Of a DNA stretch of 64,000 bases, positions 24,623 through 48,041 are shown in pieces. The stretch is from Adlercreutzia sp. ZJ304 (lineage in GTDB: Bacteria > Actinomycetota > Coriobacteriia > Coriobacteriales > Eggerthellaceae), in NCBI RefSeq assembly GCF_011039075.1, contig NZ_JAAKEG010000003.1, positions 1-64,000 on the forward strand, read 5' to 3'. The position numbers and the translations under genes are program-made. The stretch's first letter is position 1. Every line of letters starts with the position of its first letter. Under the pieces are notes generated by a model. The model had not been told where the DNA came from and did not search any database. It was given only the letters and a program-made list of their open reading frames with translations.

Positions 24623-24644
24623 TGCGCGAAGGAGTAGGCTAAGA

Positions 24645-25724: not shown

Positions 25725-26966
25725 ATGAGAAAGAGGAAGAAGGCAGGTTTGGCGATTGCATCTATTAGTGCGATCGCATTGGTGGTCGGACTTGCGGCAT
25801 GTGCGCCGCAGGCTAACACGACTGGCTCCTTCGAATCCGAGAACATGCCAGCCGAAGATCAATTCGGTGTCGTTGAAGCGGCGGAATGGGCAGGGCTCTA
25901 CCCCGATCAATACGACACGTACATGAAGAATCTCGAGAATTCGCCGCAGTCTGGGAAGCATAACTACCTAGAGCTGTATCCGGCGCTCAATACCATGTAC
26001 AAAGGCTACGCATTTGCGCTCGGCTACGATGAGGCATCGTCGCATCTCTACACGTTAGAGAGCGTCAAGAACACGCCGCGTACCGTCAAAAAAGAGCAGC
26101 TTGCGAACTGCATTACGTGTAAGACACCGCAGTTCACAGCTCTTGTGAATGCTGATGGCGACGAGGTTTATAAGCAGAAGTTCAACGATTTGATTGGCGA
26201 TTTTACCGAGCCGGTTAGTTGCTACAATTGTCACACAAACGATCCGAAGTCGCTCAGTCTGCCAAATAAGTACTGGACTAACAGTATTGGTAAAGACATC
26301 GACAGGATTCAGATGAGCGCGCAGGTTTGCGGTCAGTGCCACAACGAGTACTACTTCAATCCCGAGACGAAGGCAACGACAAACCCATACAGTGGGCTTG
26401 CGGGCATGACTCCCGACGCTATTCTGAAGTACTACGACGACATGGGCTTTACGGATTGGACACATCCCGAGACAGAAGCCAAGATGATCAAGGTGCAGCA
26501 CCCCGAGTTCGAGACGAACTATGGTGGAAAAATGTCACCGATGGCAAAGCAGGGTTATGCGTGTGCCGATTGCCATATGGGCACATCGGTAGACGACACG
26601 GGGGCTACGTTCACGAACCACAATTGGACGAATCCTACCCAGAACCCCGAGCTAATAGAGTCCAACTGCTCGACATGCCATGATGACATTACTGCTAAGG
26701 TTAGTGCCATTCAAGCGCAGGAAGAAGAGCGCGTGACGGCAATCAGCGAGAAGATTGCGAAATACGTTGGCGAGCTGGCGGCAAAGAAGGGTTCGCTTGA
26801 CGCTGCCACCCTTGAGCGTGCACAGTACATTCAACGTGCGGCACAGTTCTACTGGGATTTTGTGATGGTTGAAAACAGCGAAGGCGCACATAACTCCGAG
26901 CTAACATGGAGCACACTTGACAAGTCCGAGGCGCTCGTAGATGAGGGCCTCGCGCTCCTTGCGTAA
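25725..26966 (+). CDS. nrfA: Ammonia-forming cytochrome c nitrite reductase
   Basis: 413 residues with a strong GGAGAGGAGG site. A lipoprotein-type signal (VVGLAACAP) is followed by five haem sites. The first is the diagnostic CxxCK in NCITCKTPQ, whose lysine ligates the active-site haem. The others are CYNCH, CGQCH, CADCH and CSTCH. Active-site surroundings such as KYWTNSIG and HPEFETNYGG, and QGYACADCHMG, match NrfA. It reduces nitrite to ammonium with six electrons. It is followed by nrfH and shares the island with nap genes, giving a nitrate-to-ammonium route. Confidence 0.95.
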   Translation: MRKRKKAGLAIASISAIALVVGLAACAPQANTTGSFESENMPAEDQFGVVEAAEWAGLYPDQYDTYMKNLENSPQSGKHNYLELYPALNTMYKGYAFALGYDEASSHLYTLESVKNTPRTVKKEQLANCITCKTPQFTALVNADGDEVYKQKFNDLIGDFTEPVSCYNCHTNDPKSLSLPNKYWTNSIGKDIDRIQMSAQVCGQCHNEYYFNPETKATTNPYSGLAGMTPDAILKYYDDMGFTDWTHPETEAKMIKVQHPEFETNYGGKMSPMAKQGYACADCHMGTSVDDTGATFTNHNWTNPTQNPELIESNCSTCHDDITAKVSAIQAQEEERVTAISEKIAKYVGELAAKKGSLDAATLERAQYIQRAAQFYWDFVMVENSEGAHNSELTWSTLDKSEALVDEGLALLA

Positions 26967-27008
26967 GCGAAGCCGAAACGGACATCGATTACAGAAAGGA
27001 GGTAGCAC

Positions 27009-27791
27009 ATGAGCGAGGATAACAAGAAGGTGAACGAAGGCGTAAATGAGACATCGGAAGAGGCTGTGGCTAACACCGTTGTTGTAAATGAAGGTGCAGA
27101 TGCTTCACCAGAGAACAAGACTGAAGCTGCTCCTGCAGCACCGAATTCTAAGGCTGCAAAGCGTCGCAAGCGCGGTATCACGATAGGTGTTATCTGTGCG
27201 ATAGTTATAGTTGCTGGTGCAGGCTTTTGGGTGTGGCACGAGCAACCTAGCTTCTGCAATGCTATATGTCACTCGCCGATGGACCCGGCGCTTGAAACCT
27301 ACGAGGGCAAAAGTGGCGAATCTGGCGTTGACAAATGGGGCAACTCAGTTGAAGACATGGGCACCCTTATGGTAGTTCAACATAAGGAAAGTGCTGACAT
27401 GGTGTGCCTTGATTGCCATGTACCTACCATCGATCAGCAGATGGGTGAGGTGGTGCATTGGGTTGGTGGCACATACGACTACCCGCTTAACGAGTGCTCT
27501 TTGACCGACCTTAACGCATACAGGAAACTGCCGAACGCGGATGAGTTCTGTCTGAACGAAGGCTGCCACAACATGACGCGTGACGATTTAGCGCGCGCCA
27601 CGGGCGGTCAGAAGTATAATCCGCATGTTACTATCGCGGATCACAGACAGCTTGAGTGCAGCGATTGTCACAAGGCTCATCGTCAGTCGGTAATGGCTTG
27701 CACGCGTTGTCACGACGAGGCGAAAGTTCCAGAAGGCTGGCTGTCGGCGGAGCAGTCCGCAGAGATTACCAGCGCGAACTTCAACTCTTAG
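27009..27791 (+). CDS. nrfH: NrfH/NapC-type membrane multihaem cytochrome
   Basis: 260 residues. A soluble, acidic N-terminus of about 55 residues precedes a transmembrane helix (GITIGVICAIVIVAGAGFWVW). Five haem-type motifs follow: CNAICH, CLDCH, CLNEGCH, CSDCH and CTRCH. Two are non-canonical, CX3CH (first) and CX4CH (third); both are plain in the sequence. NrfH oxidises menaquinol and donates to NrfA. Proteobacterial NrfH has four haems and a shorter N-terminus. It is last of its transcript, with a terminator 27 nt after the stop. Confidence 0.88.
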   Translation: MSEDNKKVNEGVNETSEEAVANTVVVNEGADASPENKTEAAPAAPNSKAAKRRKRGITIGVICAIVIVAGAGFWVWHEQPSFCNAICHSPMDPALETYEGKSGESGVDKWGNSVEDMGTLMVVQHKESADMVCLDCHVPTIDQQMGEVVHWVGGTYDYPLNECSLTDLNAYRKLPNADEFCLNEGCHNMTRDDLARATGGQKYNPHVTIADHRQLECSDCHKAHRQSVMACTRCHDEAKVPEGWLSAEQSAEITSANFNS

Positions 27792-27817
27792 TACGGAAGC
27801 TATTTTTAGCTTATTTG

Positions 27818-27850
27818 AAAAGGCGGCATCATTTTAGATGTCGCCTTTTT
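27818..27850 (+). terminator. Terminator after nrfH
   Basis: AAAAGGCGGCATC and GATGTCGCCTTTTT form a 13-bp stem (one G-U pair) around a 6-nt loop, followed by T residues. It separates the nap-nrf transcript from the ccm operon. Confidence 0.85.
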
Positions 27851-27869
27851 AGTGGTTTGTCGGGCTTGG

Positions 27870-27891
27870 CGAAATTGTCATGCAAATTTCG
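27870..27891. promoter_or_regulatory. Palindromic operator candidate before ccm genes
   Basis: CGAAATT-GTCATGCA-AATTTCG is a perfect 7-bp inverted repeat with an 8-nt centre, between the nrfH terminator and ccmE. Its size suits a dimeric repressor or activator site. The regulator is unknown. Confidence 0.4.
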
Positions 27892-28040
27892 ATACAACTG
27901 TCGCTTTCCAATAGTCTTCGGGCTGGGTTAGTCTATCATGAAGGAAAAACATCCTTTCACGGGCATTTTTATGCAAGATTTGTATCGAATGAAGCCAATT
28001 CATCTATTTGAAAGTGGGCGTGATTCTGATTAACGCGAAG

Positions 28041-28691
28041 ATGAAAAAACGTCTGATTGCTGTATCTGGCGTAGTTGTGATAGCCATTGTGTTGGCATTG
28101 GCATTTGTGGGTTCTGGTACTGCTGCGAAGACTATGTCAGTAGCCGAAGCTGCAGAGAATCCGCAGGCTGGTCAAAAGGTTCAAGTTTCGGGCAATGTTG
28201 TACCGAACTCTTACGACACTTCGAAAAACGTTCTAACATTCAAGATATACGATCCAAATGGTTCGCCCGAACAGCAGTTATCCGTGCGTTATGAAGGTGC
28301 GGCTGCATCTACGTTCGGAAACGACGTGACTGCCATATGCACGGGGCGCATCGGCGATGACGGAACCCTGATGTGTACCGAGCTTGTGACGAAATGCCCA
28401 TCCAAGTATGAAAATGCCGACAGTGCACTTACGGTAGAGCGCCTTTTAGAATACGGCAATGAGGTTACTGGTAAAGTTGTTAAGGTTGCTGGAGAAATTG
28501 AGCCAGATACGATGAAGGCTGCGGGGCAATCAGAACGTTTCTACATTAAAGGCAACGGAGAATCTCGCATTGCTGTGGTATTTGATGGACCGCTGTCTGA
28601 TGAAATTGTCAGCGGTGCACGTGTCGTTCTAACAGGATCGGTTGACGAGTCTGGTAAATTCCAAGCGACTGATGTCGCATTAGAAGGTTAG
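28041..28691 (+). CDS. ccmE: CcmE-like haem chaperone, Cys-type, with second OB domain
   Basis: About 216 residues from the ATG at 28041; starts at 28008 or 28020 add up to 11 residues. One N-terminal transmembrane helix is followed by an OB-fold domain (GQKVQVSGNVVPNSYD, then LSVRYEGAAASTFG). It ends in KCPSKYEN. In this branch of CcmE the haem-binding residue is a cysteine rather than the E. coli histidine. A second OB-like stretch (GKVVKVAGEIEP, then SGARVVLTGSVDESG) follows. CcmE carries haem to CcmF for attachment to apocytochromes. It heads the ccm operon. Confidence 0.85.
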   Translation: MKKRLIAVSGVVVIAIVLALAFVGSGTAAKTMSVAEAAENPQAGQKVQVSGNVVPNSYDTSKNVLTFKIYDPNGSPEQQLSVRYEGAAASTFGNDVTAICTGRIGDDGTLMCTELVTKCPSKYENADSALTVERLLEYGNEVTGKVVKVAGEIEPDTMKAAGQSERFYIKGNGESRIAVVFDGPLSDEIVSGARVVLTGSVDESGKFQATDVALEG

Positions 28692-28699
28692 GCGCTTTT

Positions 28700-30907
28700 A
28701 TGTCTATAGTCGGTCTGCTCGGTATACTTGTAGCTTTCGCTGCTTGCGTGGTTTCCTTGCTGTGCTTGGGAATAGCGCATGTTCAACATTTACGCATAGA
28801 CAAGGCATCAGCTGGTTCGGCTGAAGCTGCGCGTGCGCGTTCCGTATCCGACACGCTGGCATTTGGAGGTCGCTTGGCAGCTATAGTGGCTGCTTGCGCA
28901 CTCACTTTGTGCTGCGCCGTGCTTGTATGGTGCTTTTTCTCAGGCGATGTAACGCTTGATTACGTTGTTCGCAATCGTTCTGACGCTACGGGTGAGTTGG
29001 CTTGGCTTTTCAAGCTGGCTGGTCTTTGGGCTGGTCGTGCAGGTAGTTTGCTATTTTGGGCATGGCTTATCTCGGTGTTTGGTGTCATATTAGTGTTTGC
29101 TACTCGCAAAAATATCCGTCCTCTCGACAACGGAGCGCTGGCTATTGCGCAGCTAGTGCTTGTGGCATTTGTAGGAGTGCTGCTGTTCTCGCCCGATAAC
29201 ATGCCGTTTGCTCTTCTCGACCCAGCATACTTCGACGAAAATGGTCAGCTTAAAGCTCAGGCATCTGTATTAGGTATGAATACGCTGCTTGAACATTGGG
29301 CTATGGCTATTCATCCGCCTACGCTATTTATCGGATATGCTGGTCTGACCATTCCATTTGCATACGCCATTTCTGCGCTTATAGTAAACGACGATTCCGA
29401 TGCGTGGGTTTGCGCCTCTACGCCTTATCTCATGTTTTCGTGGCTACTGCTAGGAGCCGGAATAGGGCTTGGTGCGGTGTGGGCTTATGTTGTGCTCGGC
29501 TGGGGCGGCTATTGGGGCTGGGACCCGGTTGAGAACGCCAGTCTTCTGCCTTGGCTTGTCGGTGTGGCTTTAATCCATTCATTTACGGTTTATCGCCAGC
29601 GCGGTGCATTCAAGCGCTGGTCGGTCATGTGCGCTTGTATCACTTTTTCGTTTGTGGTGCTGGGAACGTTTATAACAAGAAGTGGCATTGTGCAATCAGT
29701 GCATGCTTTCGAAGGCGATTCTGTATCGCTTGTGCTGTTTGCGGTGCTTATCGTGGCATCATTGGCTGCAGGTGCAGTTGGGCTTATTGTGCGGCACAAG
29801 AGTTTCGGTGTTTCGACAACTAATAAGTCTGACACTCTTAAAGCTGCCTCTGTCTCTGCTCCGATTAAAGAAGCGAAGGAAGATGATATAGAGTCGCTAG
29901 TCTCTCGCGATGCGGCATATTACGTAAACAATCTCGTTATGGTGGCATTCGCCGTTCTACTAGCCTACATGACTGTTTCATCTGCCCTGCCATCATTTTT
30001 GCCATTTGGAGGTCAATCTTTATCGGCAGGAACATACAACGCTATTGCGCGTCCGCTTGGAGTACTCTACTGCGCGCTAATTGCTGTATGTCCTCTGCTC
30101 GGATGGAGGCGCACGCAAGGCAAGGCATTCTTTAAGAATGCGCTTATTCCGGGTGTATGTGCGTTGGTTGTGTTCGCAGTTCTTATGGCATACTTCTGCA
30201 CCTATTTACTTCCAAGCTACGAGGCTATATTGGCTGGTGGAGGAAGTGCTGCGGAAGGACTGCTTGAGCAAGGAGCACCCGCATACTATAACGCTATAGC
30301 GGTAGTGGGGCTCTTAGTAGCCAGTTTGCTGTTCTTCAATTCGGTATTTATGCTTGTAAAAGCGCTTCGCAAAGGTAGCGCGCTGCGCCCTAGGCTTTCG
30401 CGCATTGGCGGAGCAATTGCGCATGCAGCTATGGGTATTATTCTTGTCGGACTTATAGGCTCGTCCATGTACGTGACTGAGACTAATCAATATCTTCAGT
30501 ACGATGCCGATACCAAATCCGCCGAAACGCTTAAAATACAGGATTTTGAACTTGTCTACACTGGTGAAGATGTTTTCGAATCTGACAATGGCGACGATGT
30601 TGACTATGTGGTACATTTTGATGTCTATAGAGGCGGACAATACGTTGGAAGTGTGTCACCTGCTGTGCAAATGGTGAAGTCAACGCAGCAACAGAAACTT
30701 GAGGCTAGTGTTATAGGCTTTCCTCTGGAAGACCTATTCGTGGTCTATCGCGGCATGAGCGCCGATGGCGAGTATGCGATGGATGTGCGAGTAAATCCGT
30801 TAATCAGCTTCGTGTGGGTTGGTTTTGGTCTTCTTATGTTGGGAAGTTTGCTGGCTCTTTTTGCTAGGCGCACACGTCGGGCAGAAGTGGATACAGCGCA
30901 TGCCTGA
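28700..30907 (+). CDS. ccmF: CcmF cytochrome c haem lyase
   Basis: 735 residues with many transmembrane helices. The tryptophan-rich haem-handling motif WGGYWGWDPVENASLLPWL lies near residue 275. Flanking histidines in LEHWAMAIHPPTLFIGY and ALIHSFTVYRQRG fit CcmF/NrfE. It joins haem to the cysteines of CxxCH (and the NrfA CxxCK) on the outer face of the membrane. It starts 8 nt after ccmE and overlaps ccmA by 8 nt. Confidence 0.94.
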   Translation: MSIVGLLGILVAFAACVVSLLCLGIAHVQHLRIDKASAGSAEAARARSVSDTLAFGGRLAAIVAACALTLCCAVLVWCFFSGDVTLDYVVRNRSDATGELAWLFKLAGLWAGRAGSLLFWAWLISVFGVILVFATRKNIRPLDNGALAIAQLVLVAFVGVLLFSPDNMPFALLDPAYFDENGQLKAQASVLGMNTLLEHWAMAIHPPTLFIGYAGLTIPFAYAISALIVNDDSDAWVCASTPYLMFSWLLLGAGIGLGAVWAYVVLGWGGYWGWDPVENASLLPWLVGVALIHSFTVYRQRGAFKRWSVMCACITFSFVVLGTFITRSGIVQSVHAFEGDSVSLVLFAVLIVASLAAGAVGLIVRHKSFGVSTTNKSDTLKAASVSAPIKEAKEDDIESLVSRDAAYYVNNLVMVAFAVLLAYMTVSSALPSFLPFGGQSLSAGTYNAIARPLGVLYCALIAVCPLLGWRRTQGKAFFKNALIPGVCALVVFAVLMAYFCTYLLPSYEAILAGGGSAAEGLLEQGAPAYYNAIAVVGLLVASLLFFNSVFMLVKALRKGSALRPRLSRIGGAIAHAAMGIILVGLIGSSMYVTETNQYLQYDADTKSAETLKIQDFELVYTGEDVFESDNGDDVDYVVHFDVYRGGQYVGSVSPAVQMVKSTQQQKLEASVIGFPLEDLFVVYRGMSADGEYAMDVRVNPLISFVWVGFGLLMLGSLLALFARRTRRAEVDTAHA

Positions 30908-31613
30908 TGCTATCCGGGTAGAGGGCGTTTGTAAGACCTTCGGAACACGAAAGGCTGTCGATGATATCAGCTTCGTGCTTCCCGAAGGTGCATTTCTTAC
31001 TATTTTTGGACCAAACGGTGCGGGCAAAACCACTTTGCTATCTATGCTTTCCACTCTTTCGCGACCAAGTAAGGGCACAATTTATATATGCGGAATTGAT
31101 GCGAAGGAGGAATCCGAATCCGTTCGCGCCTCTATTGGTGTGGTTTCGCATAGCTCTATGCTCTATCCCGATCTTACGGCAGAGGAAAACCTTGTGCTGT
31201 ATGGTCGTCTTTATGGTGTGCCCGATGTGAAAAATCGCGCGGTCAACTTATTAGATGCGGTTGGGCTCAAACATAGAAGGCTAGATCAGGTGCGCACGTT
31301 TTCGCGCGGAATGATTCAGCGTGTATCTATTGCCCGCGCGTTAATGAACGACCCTAGGGTTGTGTTGTTTGACGAGCCTTATTCTGGGCTAGACCCGCAC
31401 GCTACTCAGGTGTTTGACAACTTGATATCAGATGTTCGCAAAGACCGCACGTTTGTCATGGTTAGCCACGACCTAAAGAAGGGAATGCAGCTTGCCGATC
31501 ATGTGCTCTTGATGGCGCGCGGGCGTGCAGTATGTTTTGGTCGTAAAGATAAGTTAGAGCCAGATGAACTTAACCATCTGTATGAGCAGACGATCGGGGG
31601 CGGTGTTGCATGA
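30900..31613 (+). CDS. ccmA: CcmA haem-exporter ATP-binding protein
   Basis: 237 residues from the ATG overlapping the ccmF stop. Walker A is GPNGAGKTTLL, the ABC signature is FSRGMIQRVSIARAL, Walker B is RVVLFDEPYSGLD, and the switch His lies in MVSHDLKKG. In System I, CcmA powers the CcmBCD complex that loads haem on CcmE and releases it. It overlaps ccmB by 4 nt. Confidence 0.93.
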   Translation: MPDAIRVEGVCKTFGTRKAVDDISFVLPEGAFLTIFGPNGAGKTTLLSMLSTLSRPSKGTIYICGIDAKEESESVRASIGVVSHSSMLYPDLTAEENLVLYGRLYGVPDVKNRAVNLLDAVGLKHRRLDQVRTFSRGMIQRVSIARALMNDPRVVLFDEPYSGLDPHATQVFDNLISDVRKDRTFVMVSHDLKKGMQLADHVLLMARGRAVCFGRKDKLEPDELNHLYEQTIGGGVA

Positions 31614-32347
31614 GCCGCACGACCGATACACCATTGAAGGTTGAACGTAAGCATCCGTCTTCTTTTTCGCAGTACAAGGTGCTGCTTACTAAGGATTTGC
31701 TTCGCGAGGTTCGCACGAAAGAAATGCTTGTGTCGATGGGTGTCTATGCTCTGCTCGTAATTGTTGTATTTGGCGTGGCACTCGGATTCGCTGCCCCGGG
31801 AACCGATTTTCTGGAAGTCTCAGGCGGTCTTTTATGGGTAATGGTAGTGTTCACTTCGCTGCTTGGTTTGAATCGTTCGTTTTCGGTCGAGAAAGAGTGT
31901 GGGTGTTTAGAAGGTCTGCTGCTTGCGCCGATGGATCGAGGTGTAATCTTTCTAGCAAAGGCTACTTCTAACCTAATCTTTTTGCTTATTGTTGAAGTTA
32001 TTGCGGTGCCGCTTTTCTGGCTATTCTTCTCATCTGTTGCCTTGCCAGCAGAAACCGCGCCGCTAATCGCGCTTCCGCTGCTTGTGGGTTCGGTAGGTAT
32101 TGCAGGCGTAGGAACGCTTTTGTCAACCATTACTACTAATGTCAAAGGCAAAGATGTAATGCTGGCGCTATTGTTTATCCCCGTCGTATTTCCGCTGCTG
32201 TATGCTTGTGTGGCTGCTACTGTAGCAGTTCTTGTCGGGGGCGATGTTATGGCTGAATCGTTTGCCACACCGCTTGCGCTGGCAGCATTATACGATGTGG
32301 TAATGATACTTATAAGTTGGTTCCTTTACGATTTCGTCGTGTCATAA
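31610..32347 (+). CDS. ccmB: CcmB membrane protein
   Basis: 245 residues with six hydrophobic segments. It starts KVLLTKDLLREVRTKEML, the usual CcmB opening, and has SVEKECGCLEGLLLAPMDRG near residue 90. It is the permease partner of CcmA. Gene order and the ATGA overlap with ccmA support the call. Confidence 0.92.
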   Translation: MSRTTDTPLKVERKHPSSFSQYKVLLTKDLLREVRTKEMLVSMGVYALLVIVVFGVALGFAAPGTDFLEVSGGLLWVMVVFTSLLGLNRSFSVEKECGCLEGLLLAPMDRGVIFLAKATSNLIFLLIVEVIAVPLFWLFFSSVALPAETAPLIALPLLVGSVGIAGVGTLLSTITTNVKGKDVMLALLFIPVVFPLLYACVAATVAVLVGGDVMAESFATPLALAALYDVVMILISWFLYDFVVS

Positions 32348-32378
32348 TCGGGCTGTTGTTGCTCGGGAGGGGTGGACT

Positions 32379-33152
32379 ATGGCAGATTCGAAAAAGCGGA
32401 CAGCGCACAAACTGCCTGAAGCTGGGCAGTGGCCAGATGTGCTTTCACCATGGGTGATTGTGGCTGGCATTATATTAACTACACTCGGGTTTCTTATGGC
32501 ATTTTTTGTGGTGCCGCCCGTCAGTGGAGCCACAGTGAACGGAGCTGAACTTGTTGGTGACACGGTAGTTTCTAACAAGTTGCTCATGTCGCAGAAGATT
32601 TTCTATTTCCATATGCCGGTGGCTATAACGTCGTTTGCGGCACTTGCATTTGCAGCTTATTACTGCGTAAGGTTCCTTATTACACGCGAACTCCGATTCG
32701 ACACTTGTGCGCGCATTGCGATGGAAGTGGCGCTGCTATTCACTGTAATGACTATGATTACAGGCGAGATGTGGACGCGTTTCGAATGGGGAGTATGGTG
32801 GACATGGGATCCGCGCCTTACCACTTATCTTATCTTGATGTTAATTGTGATTGCCTACATCGTGCTTCGAAATATGGTCGATGATCCTATTAGGCGTGCC
32901 GCTTTCGCATCGGTTGTGGGTGTGATTGCATTTATAGACGTGCCAATTTGCTTTATGGTTACTCGTCTTATTCCGTCGTCGGTGCATCCGGTGGTCACGC
33001 GCGCAGGTGGTATGACACCCGAGATGGGGCTTTGTATAGCACTTGTTGGAGTTGGCATGATGTGTGTGGCATTCGCTTTGTACAGGGCGCGCTTTCGGCA
33101 GGTAAGATTCGCGGAACGAGTGGATGCGCTGAAGGAAAGACTTGATGATTAG
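32379..33152 (+). CDS. ccmC: CcmC haem-handling membrane protein
   Basis: 257 residues with six predicted helices. The haem-handling WWD motif is GVWWTWDPRLTTYL near residue 142. Histidines in YFHMPVA and in SSVHPVV agree with CcmC, which attaches haem to CcmE. It is followed by a ccmD-like small gene. Confidence 0.94.
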   Translation: MADSKKRTAHKLPEAGQWPDVLSPWVIVAGIILTTLGFLMAFFVVPPVSGATVNGAELVGDTVVSNKLLMSQKIFYFHMPVAITSFAALAFAAYYCVRFLITRELRFDTCARIAMEVALLFTVMTMITGEMWTRFEWGVWWTWDPRLTTYLILMLIVIAYIVLRNMVDDPIRRAAFASVVGVIAFIDVPICFMVTRLIPSSVHPVVTRAGGMTPEMGLCIALVGVGMMCVAFALYRARFRQVRFAERVDALKERLDD

Positions 33153-36036: not shown

Positions 36037-37827
36037 TTAGAATCCGTGATACAAGACTTCTTCTTCAAGATACGCAGCGTCTGCATCCATTTTTGATTCA
36101 GCTGTGCTAGAAGCTGCGTGCGGACGCGGCCTATCTTCCACCATAGTTAATAATTCTTGCTGTGTATGTATATTTAGCTTCTTATATATATGATTGATGT
36201 GCGTTTTTGCGGTGCTTTTTGATACGCACAACTTTTCCTCAATAAAGACTGCTTTATGCCCCTTTGCCAGCAAGAACAGCACTTCCGTTTCGCGACGGCT
36301 TAGTAAATACTGGTCGGCAATTTGCGTGCATCGTTTGTAGAAACTGCCTTTTTGACGCTGAGGCTTCTTAGATGCAGCAGCTGTTTCATTAGATGAATTC
36401 AATGATTCGGATGAATCCAGATTATCTGTAGAACCTGTCGTTGCCAATTTAGTCTCGGAATCTTCCATGTCAAAATCGTCTGGATGATTTGGGTTGGCAG
36501 CATCGGCCTGCTCGTCGGTGGTGGCAGTTCCGTGCGCTGCGGCGCTATCTAGTACCATCTGGTTCAGCTTTGTGGCATCTTCCACAAAGTCTGTGTTTAG
36601 CATACGTAAAACATTGCGTTTGCGTGGCATAAATGCACCGGCAATCATCAGACAAATAATGGATGCCATAGCTAGCCCTGTCCATCGCAAGTTGGTCCAT
36701 TCGTCGTATACCCCGATGCGCATCGTAATTAACGATCCAGCAACTACACCTGCTATAAGAAGACCGCAGCCTATGCCAAACACGAAAATTGGCGACAGTC
36801 TAAATTCTTGCGCCATATCTGAAAACAACACCCAAAGCAGCGTAAGAAAAACACTAAACCCTAGCGCTAGTAGAAAAATGGCGCTCAATTGATAAGCGCT
36901 GTTAAACAGTGTAACTCCTAGCATTCCTATGCCCACAATAGGAAGCATAAAACGAAATAGGGTGTCCCAGTGTGCTTCATTTTTCAGAAGTCCTACTGCG
37001 GTGATAAAAAGAATAGCGCACAAGGCACATGCGGCTCCCACCAATAGATTGCCAGCCATATCCGGTGTGCAGAATGCGCTGTGTATGCATATGCTGCCAA
37101 TAACCCATAGAGAAATGCCGAATATAAACATAGGAACGCCCAATTGCAGCAAAAATTTAAGTCGGCTTACGCGCAGCGCGTGGAATATAGGCATTTCACG
37201 CCGTCTGTAATAGGGAATTGGTGTCAAATGCCACAGCACAATTGCGGTTATTAACACAAGTGCTATTTCAATTGAAATGGAAATTACGGCGGGTATCCAG
37301 TTAACAAGTGCAATTGAAATTACAAGACCTATTACCATGCCGAAAGCCGAATTCAAGGTAATGGTCGTAAATTCATATCTTGCGAATGCAGTACACCACA
37401 AGCAAGTTAATACACCCGACCCTATGCCGGCTAGTAGGCTTCCTAGGCAGGCGATAGTTATGCTGGCGTTTGCTGTGTCTAACATACCGCATAATGCCAA
37501 CATTGCCGTACCGACAATGCATAGTATTCCCGACAATATAAGCACATTGCGACCAACGTAAAATCTTAGGAAATATTGATTAGTTAACCCCATCCATAGT
37601 AGGCAAATTGCAAGTGCACATATATATGCAAGGTGGATGGTTATGGTTACATCGTTGGAAACAGAAGCTAAAAATGCGTTGTCGCGCATTAATAGCATGG
37701 GCATACCAAACGGTGCCGAAAAAACCCATGCAATGAAAGCAGCAAGCCCTACTCCTAGCGCTGAAAGATCACCAGAAGTTTCAGCGCTGTTAGAATTACG
37801 ACCGAAACTTAAAGTTATATGTGGCAA
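36037..37827 (-). CDS. 12-TM membrane regulator with LuxR helix-turn-helix
   Basis: 596 residues. The first 400 or so hold about twelve hydrophobic segments in an MFS-like arrangement. A Ser/Asn/Asp-rich linker (residues about 425-500) follows. A C-terminal LuxR domain follows, SRRETEVLFLLAKGHKAVFIEEK with SKSTAKTHINHIYKKLNIHTQQELL. This architecture is characteristic of Eggerthellaceae, where copies flank reductase and dehydroxylase loci and are thought to sense the substrate at the membrane. The divergent molybdoenzyme operon is its likely target, and a palindrome lies between them at 37910-37928. Confidence 0.85.
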   Translation of the reverse strand: MPHITLSFGRNSNSAETSGDLSALGVGLAAFIAWVFSAPFGMPMLLMRDNAFLASVSNDVTITIHLAYICALAICLLWMGLTNQYFLRFYVGRNVLILSGILCIVGTAMLALCGMLDTANASITIACLGSLLAGIGSGVLTCLWCTAFARYEFTTITLNSAFGMVIGLVISIALVNWIPAVISISIEIALVLITAIVLWHLTPIPYYRRREMPIFHALRVSRLKFLLQLGVPMFIFGISLWVIGSICIHSAFCTPDMAGNLLVGAACALCAILFITAVGLLKNEAHWDTLFRFMLPIVGIGMLGVTLFNSAYQLSAIFLLALGFSVFLTLLWVLFSDMAQEFRLSPIFVFGIGCGLLIAGVVAGSLITMRIGVYDEWTNLRWTGLAMASIICLMIAGAFMPRKRNVLRMLNTDFVEDATKLNQMVLDSAAAHGTATTDEQADAANPNHPDDFDMEDSETKLATTGSTDNLDSSESLNSSNETAAASKKPQRQKGSFYKRCTQIADQYLLSRRETEVLFLLAKGHKAVFIEEKLCVSKSTAKTHINHIYKKLNIHTQQELLTMVEDRPRPHAASSTAESKMDADAAYLEEEVLYHGF

Positions 37828-38148: not shown

Positions 38149-40470
38149 ATGGCATACGGTAAAGAATGGCGTGTCGAGCGTTCTGACGGCACCGTCGCTA
38201 CCCGCTCCAACACTTGGTCGCCCCCGGGATCTCACCCGGTAGGGTATGGCGTTAAGGTTATTACCAAGGATGGCGAGCTTATCCGCATCGAGGGTGACGA
38301 CGACAACCCAATTACTACGGGTCGTGTGAACGCTATGAATTTGGCGCTGCGCGAGTACACCTATGCGCCTTCACGCATCATTCACCCGATGAAGCGTGCT
38401 ATTGAGGATCGCGGCAAGGATAAGTGGGAGCAGACCACTTGGGACGAAGCTATCGACACCATCTGCGAGAAGGTTCGTTACTTCCAGAACACCTATGGTC
38501 CCGAGTCCATCGTTTGCTTTGGCGGCACCGGTCGTGAAGCTTGCATCTTCTACTATGCTCTAACGTTCTCGGTTCTGCAGTCACCTAACTGCTGCTACAC
38601 GCAGTCTGGTTGGTCTTGCTATGGTCCGCGTTGCTCTATCTCTGACTATGTGCTTGGCGCTGGCTATCCTGAGCTTGACTATGCTGGTCATCTGCCCGGC
38701 AGCTATCATGACCCGGCTTACACTCTGTCTAAGTGGGTTGTGGTTTGGGGTAAAGAGCCTCTGCCTTCCAACGGTGACGGCTTCTTTGGTCACTGCCTAG
38801 TTGACATGATGAAGCTTGGCACTCATATCATTTCTGTTGACCCGCGTATCACTTGGGTTGGCGCACATGATGGCAACATCAACCTGCAGGTTCGTCCTCA
38901 GACCGACACCGCTCTGGCTCTGGGCATCATGAACCTCATGTTCGAGAACGACGAGTACGACAAAGAATTCGCTGAGAAGTGGATTTATGGTCTTGATGAG
39001 GTCAAGGCTCGTGCAGCTGAGTACCCGGTTGACAAGGTTGCTGCTATTACTACTGTTCCTGCTGAGGACATCAAGCGTGCTGCTCACATCATCGGCACCG
39101 AGCGTCCTATCGGTTGGGCATGGGGTCTAGCATTCGACCAGAACAAGAACGGCGTACAGCTGTCTCAGGCATTCATCGTTCTGGCTGCTCTGGCTGGCTC
39201 TATCGACCGTCCTGGTGGTCTAACTCTTGGTCCTCCGTCTGCTCTGCTTGGCAAGTGGCGTATGAACCAGCGTGGCGCTATGAGCGACGAAGTTTGGGAG
39301 AAGCGTATCGGCGCTGCTGCATGGCCCGGACTGTCCACTGGTATGGCTACAACTCAGCCTGACGAAACTCTGAACACCATGGAATCTGACGAGCCCTATG
39401 CTCTGAAGATGGGTTGGTTCAACAGCTCCAACTTCCTAACCCCAACCTGCTCCGCTCAGCCGAAGCGTTGGCACAAGGCTCTGCAGAAGCTAGAGTTTGT
39501 TGTTATCCAAGATCTAACCATGACCCCGACAGCTATGGCTGTTGGCGACTACTTCCTGCCGATGGCTACATGGGCAGAGCACACCGGTATCGTGCTTACC
39601 CACTATGGCCGCAACACCGTGTTCATGGGCCCCATGAACAAGGCTCTGCAGGTTGGCGAGTGCGTATCTGACGTTCAGATCTGCTTGCTGTTCGGTCAGC
39701 GTTTGAACCCCGAGTGGTATCCGTGGTACAAGCCGGCTGACGAGCATCATGTTGATTGGGATCTGCTCGAGCAGGCTACCCAAGACTTCTACAGCGATCA
39801 GCTGAAGGAACTTGGCTACGACTGGAATAGCTTCCAAGAGCTCGGCATTTATCAGCCTGGTGCACATGGCTTCGAGTATGAGAAGTATGAGAAGGGTCTG
39901 CTCCGCTTCGACGGCGAGCCCGGCTTTAACACCATTACTGGCCAAATCGAAGCTTACTCGATTCTTTATGAATCATGGGGCGAGGATCCGCTACCTTACT
40001 ACGAGGAGCCCAACTACAGCCCCTACAGCGACCTGCGTACCGACGAAGAGAAGAAGCAATATCCGCTTATCACCACGTCTGGTTCTCGTCGCTACAGCTC
40101 GTTCCACTCAGAGCATCGTCATGTTCCGTCTCTACGTCAGATCGATCCGTGGCCGTGGGTACAGATCAATCCTGAGACTGCTAAGGAATATGACATCACT
40201 GAGGGCGACTGGGTTGAGGTCTACAACATGTTTGGTGAGGCTCGCTTCAAGGCAGAAATCACTCCAGTTATGAAGCCGGGCATTCTGAACTGCGCTCATG
40301 GTTGGTGGTTCCCTGAGCAGGACGGCGAAGAGCCCAACCTGTTCGGTGTTTGGAAGTCCAACTTCAACAGCCTTGTTCCTCACATGAATATCGGCAAGCT
40401 CGGCTTCGGCGCACCGTACAAGGGTGTTATGTGCAACGCTCGCCGTGTTCGCAGCCTCGACCAAGACTAA
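38149..40470 (+). CDS. Molybdopterin oxidoreductase lacking the N-terminal [4Fe-4S] site
   Basis: 773 residues from the ATG with AAGGA upstream. The fold is that of the DMSO reductase superfamily: RIIHPMKRAIEDRGKDKWEQ, TWDEAIDTICEKV, WGKEPLPSNGDG and a C-terminal cofactor domain with TTSGSRRYSSFHSEHRHVPSLR. Relatives in this clade begin CTWSPPGCHPVGCGV and later GRLC. Here the aligned residues are N21, S28, Y33 and N61, so no cluster can bind. Candidate metal ligands lie in GWSCYGPRCSISDY near residue 160. There is no Tat signal, so it is cytoplasmic. The codons are strongly biased (GCT, GTT, CTG, CGT), suggesting very high expression. Substrate unknown. Confidence 0.88.
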   Translation: MAYGKEWRVERSDGTVATRSNTWSPPGSHPVGYGVKVITKDGELIRIEGDDDNPITTGRVNAMNLALREYTYAPSRIIHPMKRAIEDRGKDKWEQTTWDEAIDTICEKVRYFQNTYGPESIVCFGGTGREACIFYYALTFSVLQSPNCCYTQSGWSCYGPRCSISDYVLGAGYPELDYAGHLPGSYHDPAYTLSKWVVVWGKEPLPSNGDGFFGHCLVDMMKLGTHIISVDPRITWVGAHDGNINLQVRPQTDTALALGIMNLMFENDEYDKEFAEKWIYGLDEVKARAAEYPVDKVAAITTVPAEDIKRAAHIIGTERPIGWAWGLAFDQNKNGVQLSQAFIVLAALAGSIDRPGGLTLGPPSALLGKWRMNQRGAMSDEVWEKRIGAAAWPGLSTGMATTQPDETLNTMESDEPYALKMGWFNSSNFLTPTCSAQPKRWHKALQKLEFVVIQDLTMTPTAMAVGDYFLPMATWAEHTGIVLTHYGRNTVFMGPMNKALQVGECVSDVQICLLFGQRLNPEWYPWYKPADEHHVDWDLLEQATQDFYSDQLKELGYDWNSFQELGIYQPGAHGFEYEKYEKGLLRFDGEPGFNTITGQIEAYSILYESWGEDPLPYYEEPNYSPYSDLRTDEEKKQYPLITTSGSRRYSSFHSEHRHVPSLRQIDPWPWVQINPETAKEYDITEGDWVEVYNMFGEARFKAEITPVMKPGILNCAHGWWFPEQDGEEPNLFGVWKSNFNSLVPHMNIGKLGFGAPYKGVMCNARRVRSLDQD

Positions 40471-40490
40471 CTCGAAAGGAAGTGAATTAA

Positions 40491-40847
40491 ATGGCACAGA
40501 AATACGCTTTGCTAGTTGATTACACGTACTTCTCTGGCAATCATGCAGCCGAGATCGCTTGCAAAGAAGAGCTAGGCCTTCCTCTCGAGCAGTGGGGTAT
40601 CAAAGAGGTTCAGGTCGGTCCTTTCAAGAAGGGTGAAGGGAACGACGGTGACGCTTGGGAATGGTTCTACATCCCTTGCCCAACCTCTATCTTCTCCGAG
40701 CACTGGGGAACTGACGGCGACAAAGCTGGTCAGCGTCCGTTAGCTGTTCAAGTTGAAGAGTCTGCCTCTATGTACTATGGTACGCTCGAGGAAATGCAGG
40801 CCAAGATGGCGGAATTCGACCGCCCGATGGTTCTGTTCCAGCTCTAA
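40491..40847 (+). CDS. Ferredoxin-like subunit that has lost its Fe-S cysteines
   Basis: 118 residues. The framework MAQKYALLVDYTYFSGNHAAEIACKEE aligns with electron-transfer subunits of molybdoenzymes that read DYxxCxGCHxCExACK. Here F14, N17 and A20 replace three cysteines and only C24 stays. Later RPLAVQVEESASMYYG aligns with a KPxCVxHCxAxCMxYG pattern, giving A85, E89 and S93. The IFSEHW segment replaces the LCxxC pair. The shape seems kept but the clusters lost, implying a structural role. It starts 20 nt after the large subunit gene and has the same codon bias. Confidence 0.8.
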   Translation: MAQKYALLVDYTYFSGNHAAEIACKEELGLPLEQWGIKEVQVGPFKKGEGNDGDAWEWFYIPCPTSIFSEHWGTDGDKAGQRPLAVQVEESASMYYGTLEEMQAKMAEFDRPMVLFQL

Positions 40848-40938: not shown

Positions 40939-41214
40939 ATGACCAAAGAAGAGTTTTTGGCGATGCCCGCAAATGAAGCCGCTGATAAGCTGAACGAGCT
41001 TATCGCTGGTGGCAAGTCTAAGGACGAGGCTCTGGCTGAATGTGGGGTTGCTGCTCCTGACCTGATGAAGGCTCAGATTTTTTGGGTAAAGGATAAGTAT
41101 ATTGCTCGCGCTTGGGGTGGCTACACTTCAACCAAGCGTACCGGCAACGAAGCTAATGACACTGGCATCGGTGTTGGCGATAGCGATCCTTCCAAGGGCT
41201 ACGTTGGCGTGTAA
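40939..41214 (+). CDS. Small protein of unknown function in molybdoenzyme operon
   Basis: 91 residues. The N-terminal half is helical and acidic (EEFLAMPANEAADKLNELIAGGKSKDEALAECGV). The second half is Gly/Thr/Asp-rich (WGGYTSTKRTGNEANDTGIGVGDSDPSKGYVGV). There is no signal peptide or cysteine motif. It has a strong AGGAGG site and the same codon bias as its two upstream neighbours. I do not recognise it. It may be a third subunit or a dedicated maturation factor. Confidence 0.75.
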   Translation: MTKEEFLAMPANEAADKLNELIAGGKSKDEALAECGVAAPDLMKAQIFWVKDKYIARAWGGYTSTKRTGNEANDTGIGVGDSDPSKGYVGV

Positions 41215-41238: not shown

Positions 41239-41269
41239 AGGGGTTCGTCTTTTGGCGAACCCCTTTTTT
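41239..41269 (+). terminator. Terminator of the molybdoenzyme operon
   Basis: AGGGGTTCG and CGAACCCCT form a perfect 9-bp stem around an 8-nt loop, followed by six T residues. A textbook intrinsic terminator. Confidence 0.92.
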
Positions 41270-44037: not shown

Positions 44038-45675
44038 ATGTGGGGCGCTATGATAGATGCTGTTGACGAAAAGTTACGCCGCCGCGCAGAAGAAGACCGG
44101 CTAGCTGCAGACATATTGGAGGAATGTCGCGTTCAGCTGATGCTAAAGTTCCGCTTTCTAGATTTGGCGCTTTGGCGAATGTCGCTTCAGCCGGTGCGGG
44201 CTGGCGGTGCGTATCCGCTGGCTACGAACGGGCACATAGTGGCGCTTGAGGCTTTGCGTGTTATAGCCAGATTCAATCAGTCGTTCAATGAAGTTGTGCG
44301 CGACTACTTGCATATGGTTCTACACTGCATATTTAGGCATCCGTACAACGCCGATCATAAAGACCGCGAGGCGTGGAATTTAACTTGCGACATTATTGTT
44401 GAAAGTGTGGCTATGGATATGTGCGCTGGTCGCTTTTCCAGCGAAGACGATACGGCGCGCAAAGAGGCGCTAAGCAAGATTAGGCTAATGGCGGGCGACA
44501 TGCTGCCGGGAAAAGTATATTCGCTTGTTCATAATATGGTGCAAACTCCTGCGGGGCAGCAGTATCGCGGGCTTGGGCGTAGCACCCTAAATGAATGGCA
44601 TGCGCTGTTTGAGCGCGACGAACATGCTGCTTGGCCCGCTATGGGCGATACGGACAATAAATCCGTTGAGAATGTTCCGGAAAAATATTCAGAGGATGAA
44701 AGCAGTAATAATGAACAAGCTGCATCTTCTGTTGAAGAATTGCTAAATGCCGAGCAGCTTCCTGAAAGCATGCGCGAGCAGATGCAAGATCTAGAAAGTC
44801 GCGGGGAAGACGAGGGAAGCGAAGGTGGCGGCGAAGACGACTCTGCTGAAACCGAATTGGCTGCAGAGCAGATGCCTTATTCGCACGAAGATCAAGGCGC
44901 AGATCCTATGGGCAATTTCCAAGATAATGAAGAGCGAGAAGATGACGCAAAGGAATGGGAAGAAATAAGCAAGCAAATAGCGATGAATTTGGACACTTTT
45001 AGCAAGGAGTGGGGCGAAGAGACAAATAGCTTCATGCAAAATTTATCGCTTGTTAACCGCAAACAGTACGACTACTCCGAATTTTTGCGGCAATTTATGG
45101 TGCAAAACGAAGAAATACTAGTAAACCCCGATGAGTTTGACTATGTCTATTACACCTACGGGATAGATTTGTATGGAAATATGCCGCTAATTGAGCCGCT
45201 GGAATATAAGGAAACCGACCGTATTCGCGATTTTGTTATAGCGATAGACACGTCGGAGTCGGTTAAGGGCGATTTGGTGCGTCGTTTTGTGCAACATACT
45301 TTCGACATTCTGAAAAGTTCGCAAGACTATGCGACCGATGTAAACATACATGTAATACAAAGCGATTCTCGCTTGCAGGAGGATATGGTTATACGCGATA
45401 TGCGCGATGTTGATGCGCTGATGGAGCGCTTTAAGGTGCGTGGTTTTGGTGGAACCGATTTTCGCCCTGTGTTTGACTATGTGCAGGGCATGCGCGACTC
45501 CGGCAAGCTTACCGATATGCGCGGATTGATATATTTTACAGATGGGCTGGGCACATTCCCGGATGCTCCGCCCGATTTTGATGCAGCGTTTGTTTTTGTG
45601 GAAGATGAGGCGCGCGAAATTCCTGCCGTGCCGCCTTGGGCAATTAAGCTAGTTGTAAAGGAAGAGACGTTATGA
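44038..45675 (+). CDS. DUF2201-type VWA protein
   Basis: About 545 residues; the ATG at 44050, behind GGGG, is an alternative start. The N-terminal third resembles the metallopeptidase-like domain of DUF2201, with spaced histidines in YLHMVLHCIFRHPYNADH near residue 100. A long Glu/Asp/Ser-rich linker (about 215-320) follows. The C-terminal VWA domain has the MIDAS motif VIAIDTSESVKGD near residue 402 and GGTDFRPVFDYV. Such proteins pair with MoxR ATPases in protein-complex or metal-centre assembly. Its last codons overlap the MoxR start. Confidence 0.82.
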   Translation: MWGAMIDAVDEKLRRRAEEDRLAADILEECRVQLMLKFRFLDLALWRMSLQPVRAGGAYPLATNGHIVALEALRVIARFNQSFNEVVRDYLHMVLHCIFRHPYNADHKDREAWNLTCDIIVESVAMDMCAGRFSSEDDTARKEALSKIRLMAGDMLPGKVYSLVHNMVQTPAGQQYRGLGRSTLNEWHALFERDEHAAWPAMGDTDNKSVENVPEKYSEDESSNNEQAASSVEELLNAEQLPESMREQMQDLESRGEDEGSEGGGEDDSAETELAAEQMPYSHEDQGADPMGNFQDNEEREDDAKEWEEISKQIAMNLDTFSKEWGEETNSFMQNLSLVNRKQYDYSEFLRQFMVQNEEILVNPDEFDYVYYTYGIDLYGNMPLIEPLEYKETDRIRDFVIAIDTSESVKGDLVRRFVQHTFDILKSSQDYATDVNIHVIQSDSRLQEDMVIRDMRDVDALMERFKVRGFGGTDFRPVFDYVQGMRDSGKLTDMRGLIYFTDGLGTFPDAPPDFDAAFVFVEDEAREIPAVPPWAIKLVVKEETL

Positions 45676-48041
45676 TGAACATCACTCAGGCGAAGCAGCA
45701 AATTAAAGATACGGTAGAGGCGTATTTGCAGCGCGATGAAGCTGGCGTTTTCGCCATAGCGCCTGTACATCAGCGTCCTGTGTTTTTGCTGGGTGCGCCG
45801 GGAATTGGCAAAACTGCCATTATGGAGCAAGTGGCGCGCGAACTGGGAATTGGTTTGGTGTCTTACTCTATGACGCACCACACGCGCCAAAGTGCTCTAG
45901 GTTTGCCGCGCATTGAGCGCCGCAGCTTTGAGGGCTTAGATTTTGAAGCATCGGAATATACGATGAGCGAAATAGTGGCTGCAATATACGACTATATGGA
46001 GCGTACTGGGCTTAGAAGCGGCATTCTGTTTTTGGATGAAATTAACTGCGTTTCCGAAACGCTGTATCCGTCTATGCTGCAATTCTTGCAATTCAAAACG
46101 TTTGGCAAGCATAAGGTGCCGGCGGGTTGGGTTGTTGTGTGCGCGGGCAATCCGCCGGAATACAACCGTAGTGTGCACGAATTTGACATAGTAACGCTTG
46201 ACCGTCTTCGCGAAATAGATGTGCAACCCGACTATAGTGCGTGGCGCGAATATGCTGTGGGACGGGGTCTGCATCCGGCTGTTACCACTTTTTTGGAAGC
46301 GAAGAAAGATTGCTTCTATAAGGTTGAGAGCAAGCCAGGCGGTGGTAAGTCGTTTGTGACGGCGCGTGGTTGGGAAGATTTAGCTGACCTTATTGCGCTG
46401 TACGAGCGCATGGAAAAGCCCGTCGATCGCGATTTGTTCGAGCAGTTCTTGCGCGATGATGAGGTATGCGATCAATTCAGTGTGTACTATGCGCTGTTCC
46501 AAAAGTATCGCAGCGATTATCAGGTAGATTCCATTTTGGCAGGCGAAGCTAGCGATACTATTCGCGCACGGGCGCGTGACGCTGCATTTGACGAGCGAGT
46601 AGCGCTTTTAGGTCTGCTGTTTGATGCGCTTGGCGACAGTTGTGCTGACACGTTGCAGCTGGAAGATGTTTGCATGCGTTTGCGAGATGTTCTGCGTGAA
46701 GCTAAGCCGGAACTGTTAGATGGGGCTTCCGCTGATGAGGCGCTTGGTGGGCGAATTGCGCATATTGAATCTGACCTTGCCCGTCGAGAAGATGCTGGTA
46801 CGGTATCGATTTCTGAAATAAAACGCGAGCGATTGGTTATAGGAATACTGAAGGCGTTTTTGGCTGAGTGCGTATTGCAGCAGACTCCAAGTGGTCAAGC
46901 AGCTTTTCGCACTATAGAGGCTGCATACAAAGCAGAAGTAGCGAAAGTTCAGCCGGCGATAAATGAGGCTAGCGCCAAGATGGATCGCGCTTTTGAATTT
47001 GTTGATGGCACAATGGGCAATCGCGAAATGCTGGTGTTTTTGGCAGAACTGACTACGCGGCGTGCTACTACTCAATTTGTATCGCACTACGGAAACGATA
47101 TGTATTACAAGTTCAACGAAAATTTGCAGGTTGATGCTTCGCGTGCAGGGCTATATGACAGAGTGGAAAAATTAAACAATCTGGATGAGGGCGATGCTGA
47201 GGCTGCCAAGCCTGCTGCAGCCACCGGACCTGCTGAAGTTGCCAAGCCTGTTGCAGCCGCCGGGGCTACCGAAGTTGCCAAGCCTGTTGTAGCCACCGGG
47301 GCTGCCACACAAGCAGTTTCCGCTTCTGTATCTAAATCTTCCACAGACACGGCTGCGCTGGCGGAGCACTACGCCAACAAAGAATTCGAATATGGCTTTG
47401 CGTCGGTATGTAAAATGCTGCTTCCCGCAAGCGAATTGAAAGGCAAGCGCGTGTTAGATGTAGGCAGTAGGCGCGGGCGCGGGGTGTACAAGCTAAGCAG
47501 CATGGTCGGCAACGAAGGTCATGCGATTGGCATAGATTGGAGTCCGTCTTATGTGCAGGAATCTATTGATGGCATGAGCCGCGCTTGGCACGATAGCGGG
47601 CTTAAGGGCAACAATATGGAATTTCACGTGGCTTACCCGGAGGATTTAATTTCTGCGGGAATTGGCACGTCTACGATAGATGCCGTGTACATAAATAATG
47701 TTGTAACTCTGTTGTACGATCAGCAGCAGGCATTGCGTGAATTTGGGCGCGTGTTGAAGCCGGGCGGGCTGTTAATACTGGAAACGGTGTTTGCCGACCG
47801 CAGCCGCAATGAAGCTGTCGTGGAAGCCGCGCGTGAAATTGGCAACAGCATTCAGGCTGCACACACTGAAGCTGAAAACTTGGCATGGTTAGAAGCTGCT
47901 GGTTTTGACACGCCAAGTATTGAAGATGAATACGAGGTAGCTGCCAATTTAGGATACAAAGCAGGTGAAACTGTAGATACCGTTTTAGATGATGAAGACG
48001 TGCACTATAAAGCGGTAAGTTTATACGTGCGTAAAAAATAG
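45672..48041 (+). CDS. MoxR AAA+ ATPase fused to a SAM-dependent methyltransferase
   Basis: 789 residues in three parts. Residues 1-505 are a MoxR-type AAA+ ATPase: Walker A GAPGIGKTAIMEQ near residue 40, Walker B GILFLDEINCV near 118, sensor VVCAGNPPEYNRSV, and an Arg region DRLREIDVQPDY. Residues 507-560 are an Ala/Pro/Val linker with three near repeats of AEVAKPVxAxGA. Residues 570-789 are a class I methyltransferase with motif I RVLDVGSRRGRGVYKLSSMVG near 593 and GRVLKPGGLLILET, somewhat like the ArsM group. The frame is continuous, so the fusion is real in this sequence. Confidence 0.85.
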   Translation: MMNITQAKQQIKDTVEAYLQRDEAGVFAIAPVHQRPVFLLGAPGIGKTAIMEQVARELGIGLVSYSMTHHTRQSALGLPRIERRSFEGLDFEASEYTMSEIVAAIYDYMERTGLRSGILFLDEINCVSETLYPSMLQFLQFKTFGKHKVPAGWVVVCAGNPPEYNRSVHEFDIVTLDRLREIDVQPDYSAWREYAVGRGLHPAVTTFLEAKKDCFYKVESKPGGGKSFVTARGWEDLADLIALYERMEKPVDRDLFEQFLRDDEVCDQFSVYYALFQKYRSDYQVDSILAGEASDTIRARARDAAFDERVALLGLLFDALGDSCADTLQLEDVCMRLRDVLREAKPELLDGASADEALGGRIAHIESDLARREDAGTVSISEIKRERLVIGILKAFLAECVLQQTPSGQAAFRTIEAAYKAEVAKVQPAINEASAKMDRAFEFVDGTMGNREMLVFLAELTTRRATTQFVSHYGNDMYYKFNENLQVDASRAGLYDRVEKLNNLDEGDAEAAKPAAATGPAEVAKPVAAAGATEVAKPVVATGAATQAVSASVSKSSTDTAALAEHYANKEFEYGFASVCKMLLPASELKGKRVLDVGSRRGRGVYKLSSMVGNEGHAIGIDWSPSYVQESIDGMSRAWHDSGLKGNNMEFHVAYPEDLISAGIGTSTIDAVYINNVVTLLYDQQQALREFGRVLKPGGLLILETVFADRSRNEAVVEAAREIGNSIQAAHTEAENLAWLEAAGFDTPSIEDEYEVAANLGYKAGETVDTVLDDEDVHYKAVSLYVRKK

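Follow-up and report, generated by a model that had tools for sequence, protein, structure and literature searches.

How does a molybdenum enzyme receive electrons when both of its subunits have lost the cysteines that normally hold iron-sulfur clusters? This question is raised by a pair of genes in Adlercreutzia sp. ZJ304 (Eggerthellaceae), located at positions 38,149 to 40,847 of a 64,000-nucleotide stretch (assembly GCF_011039075.1, contig NZ_JAAKEG010000003.1, positions 1 to 64,000 of the forward strand), which is called the window here. The genes encode a large subunit of the type that carries molybdenum bis-pyranopterin guanine dinucleotide (Mo-bisPGD) and a small partner subunit. From the comparisons described below, the product is quite probably a hydrocaffeic acid (HCA) dehydroxylase, that is, a cytoplasmic Mo-bisPGD reductase without iron-sulfur clusters that would be fed directly by a soluble donor.

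Cluster sites of the two subunits

The features of the two subunits are as follows.

38149..40470, plus strand: large (Mo-bisPGD) subunit, 773 amino acids (aa), from ATG at 38149 to the stop at 40470
38230..38340, plus strand: former [4Fe-4S] region of the large subunit, placed by paralogue columns and profile-aligned to CDINC...CMK of acetylene hydratase
38230-38232, 38245-38247 and 38329-38331, plus strand: S28, Y33 and N61
38335-38337 and 38338-38340, plus strand: M63 and N64
38617..38619, plus strand: C157, presumed molybdenum ligand, present in 65/65 alignment rows
40491..40847, plus strand: small partner, 118 aa, homologous to partners of the 2x[4Fe-4S] type but lacking their cluster cysteines
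40530..40757, plus strand: former ligand positions of the partner, F14, N17, A20, (C24 kept), F68, H71, A85 and E89

The mechanically called open reading frame (ORF) of the large subunit opens at TTG 38107, and the ATG at 38149 has a purine-rich stretch upstream and agrees with the start of the orthologues. Judged by eye, the N-terminus does not resemble a twin-arginine translocation (Tat) signal. Two molybdopterin domains of Pfam match above the cut-off, and the Fe4S4 domain stays under it (14 vs 22.7 bits).

The original prediction listed N21, S28, Y33 and N61 as the four vacated cluster positions of the large subunit. The residues and the gene positions read as it stated, and 28, 33 and 61 proved to be conserved cysteine-type columns; position 21 is not a conserved cluster column, and a further lost column, N64, had been missed together with the loss of the basic residue at 63. 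This was found by alignment with dehydroxylase paralogues and acetylene hydratase, a check proposed at the time, which confirmed the loss of the cluster site as such. Among 40 cysteine-bearing paralogues, drawn only from the window's genome, Gordonibacter pamelaeae, Ellagibacter and four other genomes, column 28 is C in 35 and D in five, and columns 33, 61 and 64 are C in 40/40 each. Column 21 holds C in 14, S in 13, T in six, N in four and other residues in three. The paralogue cluster columns coincide with the CDINC and CMK stretches of acetylene hydratase in a profile alignment. S28, Y33, N61 and N64 are invariant in 33 orthologous large subunits. Column 63, which is basic in the paralogues (R 39, K 1), is M in 31 and L in two of these 33, and it is aligned to the lysine of acetylene hydratase that presumably lies between cluster and pterin. 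C157 is matched to the cysteine that we take to be the metal ligand of the same enzyme. The 65 alignment rows comprise 21 orthologues, 40 paralogues and 4 intermediates, which are the 67 tree rows without the outgroup L011 and without L206 (a third of its columns filled, one internal stop); L217, a split match, had been removed before tree building.

Nine of the cysteine-bearing relatives (L002-L010, 38-51% identity) are encoded in the window's own genome. Since all 40 paralogues keep C33, C61 and C64 together with C or D at 28, their usual motif is altered, yet four candidate ligands (C/D28, C33, C61, C64) remain. The aspartate at column 28 occurs in L002, L003, L190, L195 and L225, which possibly hold Asp-ligated clusters.

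The predicted residues of the partner, F14, N17, A20, A85, E89 and S93, were likewise read correctly. The first five occupy complete cysteine columns, and column 93 is cysteine in only 22 of 34 paralogue partners. Complete in 34/34 are eight columns, namely 14, 17, 20, 24, 68, 71, 85 and 89, seven of which are lost in the window's partner, where C24 remains. These counts exclude L011 as another family, and five partners were dropped for odd reading-frame length (L198, L199, L200, L212 and L217, with 9, 9, 5, 10 and 4 cysteines in their readings). C24 is present in 41/41 orthologous partners, and T takes its place in L140, a deep relative; cysteine stands at none of the seven lost columns in the 41. 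The partner has no Pfam match at E up to 1, and a weak match to a DMSO-reductase B subunit was found in NCBIfam (E 0.03). At the sequence level, the lost sites in both subunits thus support the earlier statement that the usual electron path is removed.

Maintenance and stepwise loss of the sites

Of 138 family genomes, 38 have the Cys-less partner at 74-100% identity; Cys-bearing relatives reach 45% at most. A class-wide sample of 396 genomes contains the Cys-less partner in 37, five of them from other families of the same order, and the matches at E 1e-56 or below are followed by a next match at 4e-28. Both tallies are our own counts, the first from genomes listed at an identity of at least 74% and the second at E 1e-56 or below. 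In a collection of named genomes, two peptide patterns gave 84 matches, including 41 orthologous loci whose taxon labels are Coriobacteriia or lower, or just uncultured bacterium or actinobacterium. They include several Gordonibacter, P. hongkongensis RC2/2 A, E. isourolithinifaciens DSM 104140, R. timonensis and Adlercreutzia murintestinalis DSM 112345. The orthologue group (21 rows) forms one side of a branch with support 100 in a 67-row tree made by a quick method.

Across 33 large subunits, 433 of the 773 positions are invariant. The ratio of nonsynonymous to synonymous changes (dN/dS), calculated against the window by a simple Nei-Gojobori script, is about 0.07-0.09 for the large subunit and 0.02-0.03 for the partner in named orthologues at 89-94% identity (about 0.07 and 0.03 for the G. 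pamelaeae copy), and about 0.14 and 0.05-0.08 in two orthologues at 83-87%. Because of this low dN/dS and the invariance of S28, Y33, N61 and N64, the Cys-less state is maintained under strong purifying selection and is not decay. Pseudogene formation is ruled out by dN/dS together with the presence in many genera. Recent transfer is not favoured either, given the large synonymous differences (proportion of synonymous differences 0.42-0.60 in the large subunit for six named orthologues that are 89-97% identical) and the recurrence of downstream genes, with a 773-aa gene in 20 of 39 loci and the following two in 14 and 13. These neighbour counts are only a rough guide, as the ORFs were called automatically, with a large number of spurious antisense frames among them, and many loci are incomplete. 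Deep relatives (L139 and L140, large subunit about 69%) carry the same large-subunit changes, and the partner of L140 is also without C24. Two or three cluster-free copies of the operon are found in some genomes (L110, L118 and L138 in Adlercreutzia sp. ZJ473; L073 and L097 in G085), some of them interrupted by contig ends.

A half-way state is seen in a sister clade, which comes from two Raoultibacter and two other genomes and joins the orthologues with support 99 in a quick tree. Its operons and the end of the window's operon are located as follows.

L218 3801-6489; L219 7152-9768; L220 7330-9946; L221 736-3354: half-way operons
40939..41214, plus strand: P3, third operon gene of the window, 91 aa, no Pfam or NCBIfam match
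41239..41264, plus strand: terminator-like hairpin (11 pairs) and T run at the operon end, a pattern match only (4 such hairpins in the region vs 2.8 expected from shuffles)

The large subunits of L218-L221 have E28, W33, N61 and G or M at 64 (about 54% identical), and their partners retain all eight cysteines. Among the closest branches outside are D28 forms whose partners have at least 10 cysteines. From the sister clade, which has eight partner cysteines and no large-subunit sites, it follows that the sites of the large subunit were probably lost first and those of the partner second.

P3 lies behind 40 of 41 orthologous partners, the remaining locus stopping at a contig end, and a P3-like gene lies behind 4/4 half-way operons. 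Its homologues occur in 44 of 138 family genomes (E 0.001), including a second family elsewhere in Gordonibacter and other genomes. P3 is the least conserved of the three operon proteins: in G. pamelaeae it is 58% identical, against 90/93% for large subunit and partner, and in L140 it is 33% identical, against 71/62%. It has no cysteine set, recognised cofactor motif or family match in Pfam and NCBIfam, and this lack of a match rules it out as a known chaperone or redox carrier. A stand-alone homologue (L222 5889-6122, 77 aa, about 39%) is found in G. pamelaeae, with relatives in several family genomes; no molybdoenzyme operon was recognised in the surroundings of L222.

Relation to Gp Hcdh and the source of electrons

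The enzyme formerly called Unk-9 was renamed Gp Hcdh and comprises a 770-aa catalytic subunit and an "accessory subunit" (Bae et al., PMC11585353). It is encoded in Gordonibacter, P. hongkongensis RC2/2 A, E. isourolithinifaciens DSM 104140 and R. massiliensis. Its regulator is 44% identical and 60% similar to HcdR of E. lenta, and the enzyme shows 17% identity and 29% similarity to the 1193-aa E. lenta Hcdh (PMC11585353).

The window's large subunit is 89.8% identical (global) and its partner 93.3% identical to the copies in G. pamelaeae 7-10-1-b, the genome compared here; the strain in the paper is 3C. Orthologues are 770 aa long in G. pamelaeae 7-10-1-b, Gordonibacter 28C, P. hongkongensis and two Raoultibacter genomes, 771 aa in Ellagibacter and 773 aa in the window. 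Three large subunits with about 38% identity or more to that of the window are encoded in P. hongkongensis, and their lengths are 770, 750 and up to 839 aa. R. massiliensis does not appear by name among the 41 named loci. Near the G. pamelaeae copy lies a regulator with 45.0% identity and 60.6% similarity to one in a genome that we take to be that of E. lenta DSM 2243. The G. pamelaeae copy of the enzyme shares 17.1% identity and 27.1% similarity with the 1193-aa Tat-type enzyme that lies about 7 kb from the regulator there. The same arrangement has been described, hcdR being not in direct proximity to hcdh (Dong et al., PMC9734109). By clade, length, species list, regulator identity and identity to Hcdh, the window's operon is, as judged by sequence, the orthologue of Gp Hcdh.

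Gp Hcdh dehydroxylates HCA, with a kcat of 28.3 per min and a Km of 0.24 mM in an assay that uses methyl viologen and dithionite; it holds equimolar molybdenum and was purified active under air (PMC11585353). Its deletion in G. urolithinfaciens abolishes HCA-driven ATP production, and both of its genes are the top two expressed genes of G. pamelaeae 3C in one human gut metatranscriptome cohort, MLVS (PMC11585353). As the orthologue carries out a viologen-driven dehydroxylation of HCA, the reaction consumes electrons. It had been proposed for the window's enzyme that no net external electrons are needed, and this is contradicted by the viologen-driven reduction and its link to ATP (PMC11585353); the other proposal, that electrons are taken directly from another donor, survives. 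Because of the 90% identity, HCA (3,4-dihydroxyphenylpropionate), an acid of plant origin, would also be the substrate in the window's organism, although this is less certain than the chemistry.

A cluster-free two-electron reductase is therefore the most likely form of the enzyme suggested by these comparisons. Two electrons would pass directly to Mo(VI) from a reduced soluble donor, which may be NAD(P)H, flavodoxin or a flavoprotein. The donor could dock at the active-site funnel or above the vacated cluster pocket, as in DorA, TorA and BisC; the biotin sulfoxide reductase of Rhodobacter reportedly takes electrons directly from NADPH. The partner would serve as a structural or docking subunit and not as a wire, and P3 may help to dock the donor or act in assembly. 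Among close orthologues, constraint is stronger on the partner than on the large subunit, although the partner has lost the usual cluster sites, which suggests such docking or structural work. The purification of Gp Hcdh under air fits the absence of clusters.

Loss of the cluster sites in both Gp Hcdh subunits is not stated in the literature passages searched, supplements and most subscription papers lying outside them. Gordonibacter-type enzymes have been described with 4Fe-4S or iron-sulfur partners (PMC12771579, PMC11887054, PMC7028382).

Several observations weigh against a cluster-free HCA dehydroxylase in the window. The first concerns its regulator.

36037..37827, minus strand: divergent LuxR-type regulator, 596 aa, with a long N-terminal part and a LuxR DNA-binding domain (Pfam)

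This protein shares only 32.9% identity with the G. pamelaeae regulator (28.6% with the E. lenta regulator used for comparison), and the MFS transporter near some orthologues sits on another contig in the window's genome. Because of these two features, the inducer and the substrate in the window's organism could differ. In addition, C132, C148, C162, C434, C512 and C715 of the large subunit are near-invariant in the orthologue clade and uncommon outside it, and C63 is found in 38 of 41 orthologous partners; these clade-specific cysteines could bind something new. The main text of PMC11585353 reports molybdenum, and the word "iron" is absent from it. The structure models are of low confidence, with a mean predicted local distance difference test score (pLDDT) of 59 for the large subunit and of 56 for the partner, both too weak for pockets or distances, and the partner model gives no support for a retained ferredoxin fold.

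The cysteines lead to the alternative that clusters were relocated, so that C132, C148, C149, C162 or others bind iron-sulfur or form a dithiol/disulfide relay. C132 and C162 are cysteine in 21/21 orthologue rows and C148 in 20/21; C132, C162 and C148 are cysteine in 2, 5 and 1 of the 40 paralogues and in 0, 1 and 0 of the 4 intermediates. C149 is cysteine in 21/21 orthologues, 4/4 intermediates and 11/40 paralogues. However, their spacing is not known to occur in a cluster motif, and C63 of the partner, though frequent, is not invariant and is accompanied by C24 alone. Together with the activity of the orthologue after purification under air (PMC11585353), this makes relocation unlikely.

A little less likely again is that the wire is replaced by a third protein with its own redox centre, either P3 or an unlinked carrier. 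The constant position of P3 and P3-like genes behind partners in operons without large-subunit sites would agree with this, but the lack of a cysteine set, family match or cofactor motif in P3 and its low conservation speak against it.

For Gp Hcdh as characterised, a redox-neutral reaction is contradicted, and for the window's enzyme a hydratase, transhydroxylase or isomerase that requires no electrons is very improbable. Such an enzyme would explain why wiring sites are lost from both subunits, and acetylene hydratase, which is redox-neutral and a single subunit, is the closest solved structure by sequence. However, the aspartate after the second cluster cysteine of acetylene hydratase is His29 here, as in 40/40 paralogues, and the orthologue at 90% identity dehydroxylates reductively with viologen electrons and supports ATP formation (PMC11585353). 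That the protein is a non-catalytic remnant or scaffold, as ligands lost from both subunits might suggest, is hardly credible in view of the strong purifying selection, the retained presumed metal-ligand cysteine and the activity of the orthologue with one molybdenum (PMC11585353).

The unremarked, apparent absence of iron-sulfur wiring is a gap in the description of a studied, gut-expressed and ATP-linked enzyme. It raises the question of which donor reduces a buried molybdenum without a cluster chain, and how the reaction is coupled to energy conservation. The series from intact sites through Asp variants and large-subunit loss to loss in both subunits offers a natural experiment on the purpose of the clusters. 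A clusterless enzyme may also tolerate oxygen better and be easier to express.

Around the operon, an MFS transporter of about 570 aa is encoded in 12 of 39 loci (L065, L072-L074, L063, L140 and others) and a 196-aa protein without Pfam match in 11 of 39; the transporter homologue on the other contig of the window's genome (L236) is 71% identical. Positions 45672-48041 of the window encode a 789-aa protein with a weak ATPase-like N-terminus and a methyltransferase-like C-terminus (arsenite methyltransferase models, below cut-off), which recurs in 13 of 39 orthologous loci. Farther away, a Cas9 gene (1398 aa) lies at 9648-13844 in a stretch whose G+C of 0.41 is lower than its surroundings, and 20700-33152 carries a periplasmic nitrate reductase-like NapA with Fer4 proteins, cytochrome c552 (NrfA-like), a cytochrome c3-like protein and a Ccm cytochrome maturation operon.

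Comparison with known systems

Like Gp Hcdh, the window's enzyme has two subunits and a LuxR regulator in its vicinity, and the Gordonibacter copy itself has lost the very cluster sites that are missing here; the window's operon differs in its divergent regulator and in having no adjacent MFS transporter. The Gordonibacter-type catechol dehydroxylases (Dodh, Cldh, Eadh) have in common with it the family, similar size (about 740-790 aa), gene order, partner length, no Tat signal by eye, and acetylene hydratase as closest relative. The paralogues compared here differ in that 40/40 large subunits keep C33, C61 and C64, with C or D at 28, and 34/34 partners eight cysteines, whereas the window's partner does not match the 4Fe-4S partner of that type, with seven of eight columns lost and no Pfam match. 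The half-way sister clade is like the window in its lost large-subunit sites and its P3-like gene and unlike it in its eight partner cysteines.

Acetylene hydratase (PDB 2e7z) is the best solved relative by sequence and came first in a fold search with the large-subunit model (template modeling score 0.49, root-mean-square deviation 16.6; used for ranking alone). It differs in retaining the cluster cysteines and the lysine after the last one; its C-D, C and C columns are S28-H29, Y33 and N61 in the window, so that neither the cysteine set nor the aspartate is present.

Pyrogallol-phloroglucinol transhydroxylase acts on an aromatic ring with a clusterless large subunit and a small subunit that keeps its clusters. 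The original prediction saw the window's pair as a further step from this enzyme; the likeness is apt for the sister clade, where the partner cysteines are kept, but the transhydroxylase belongs to the Ser-ligand group (PMC10100899). Neither its serine ligand nor its iron-sulfur small subunit is found in the window's enzyme, for which it was a distant profile match with the best stretch over part of the chain.

DorA, TorA and BisC are, like the window's enzyme, Mo-bisPGD reductases; they have no ferredoxin-like partner, and TorA and BisC are without a cluster. DorA is also without a cluster, and all three belong to the Ser-ligand group (PMC10100899), whereas the window has C157 at the presumed ligand column. 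Because DorA, TorA and BisC stand in the Ser-ligand branch, the clusters of the Cys-ligand branch would have been lost independently. It is tentatively proposed, as a conceivable but less secure extension, that the window's operon encodes a molybdenum reductase linked to respiration, belonging to the Cys-ligand branch and without a cluster in either subunit, in which the clusters were lost stepwise, P3 was gained en route and electrons come directly from a soluble two-electron donor or through new active-site cysteines. It may then be a second, independent cluster-free molybdoreductase beside DorA, TorA and BisC.

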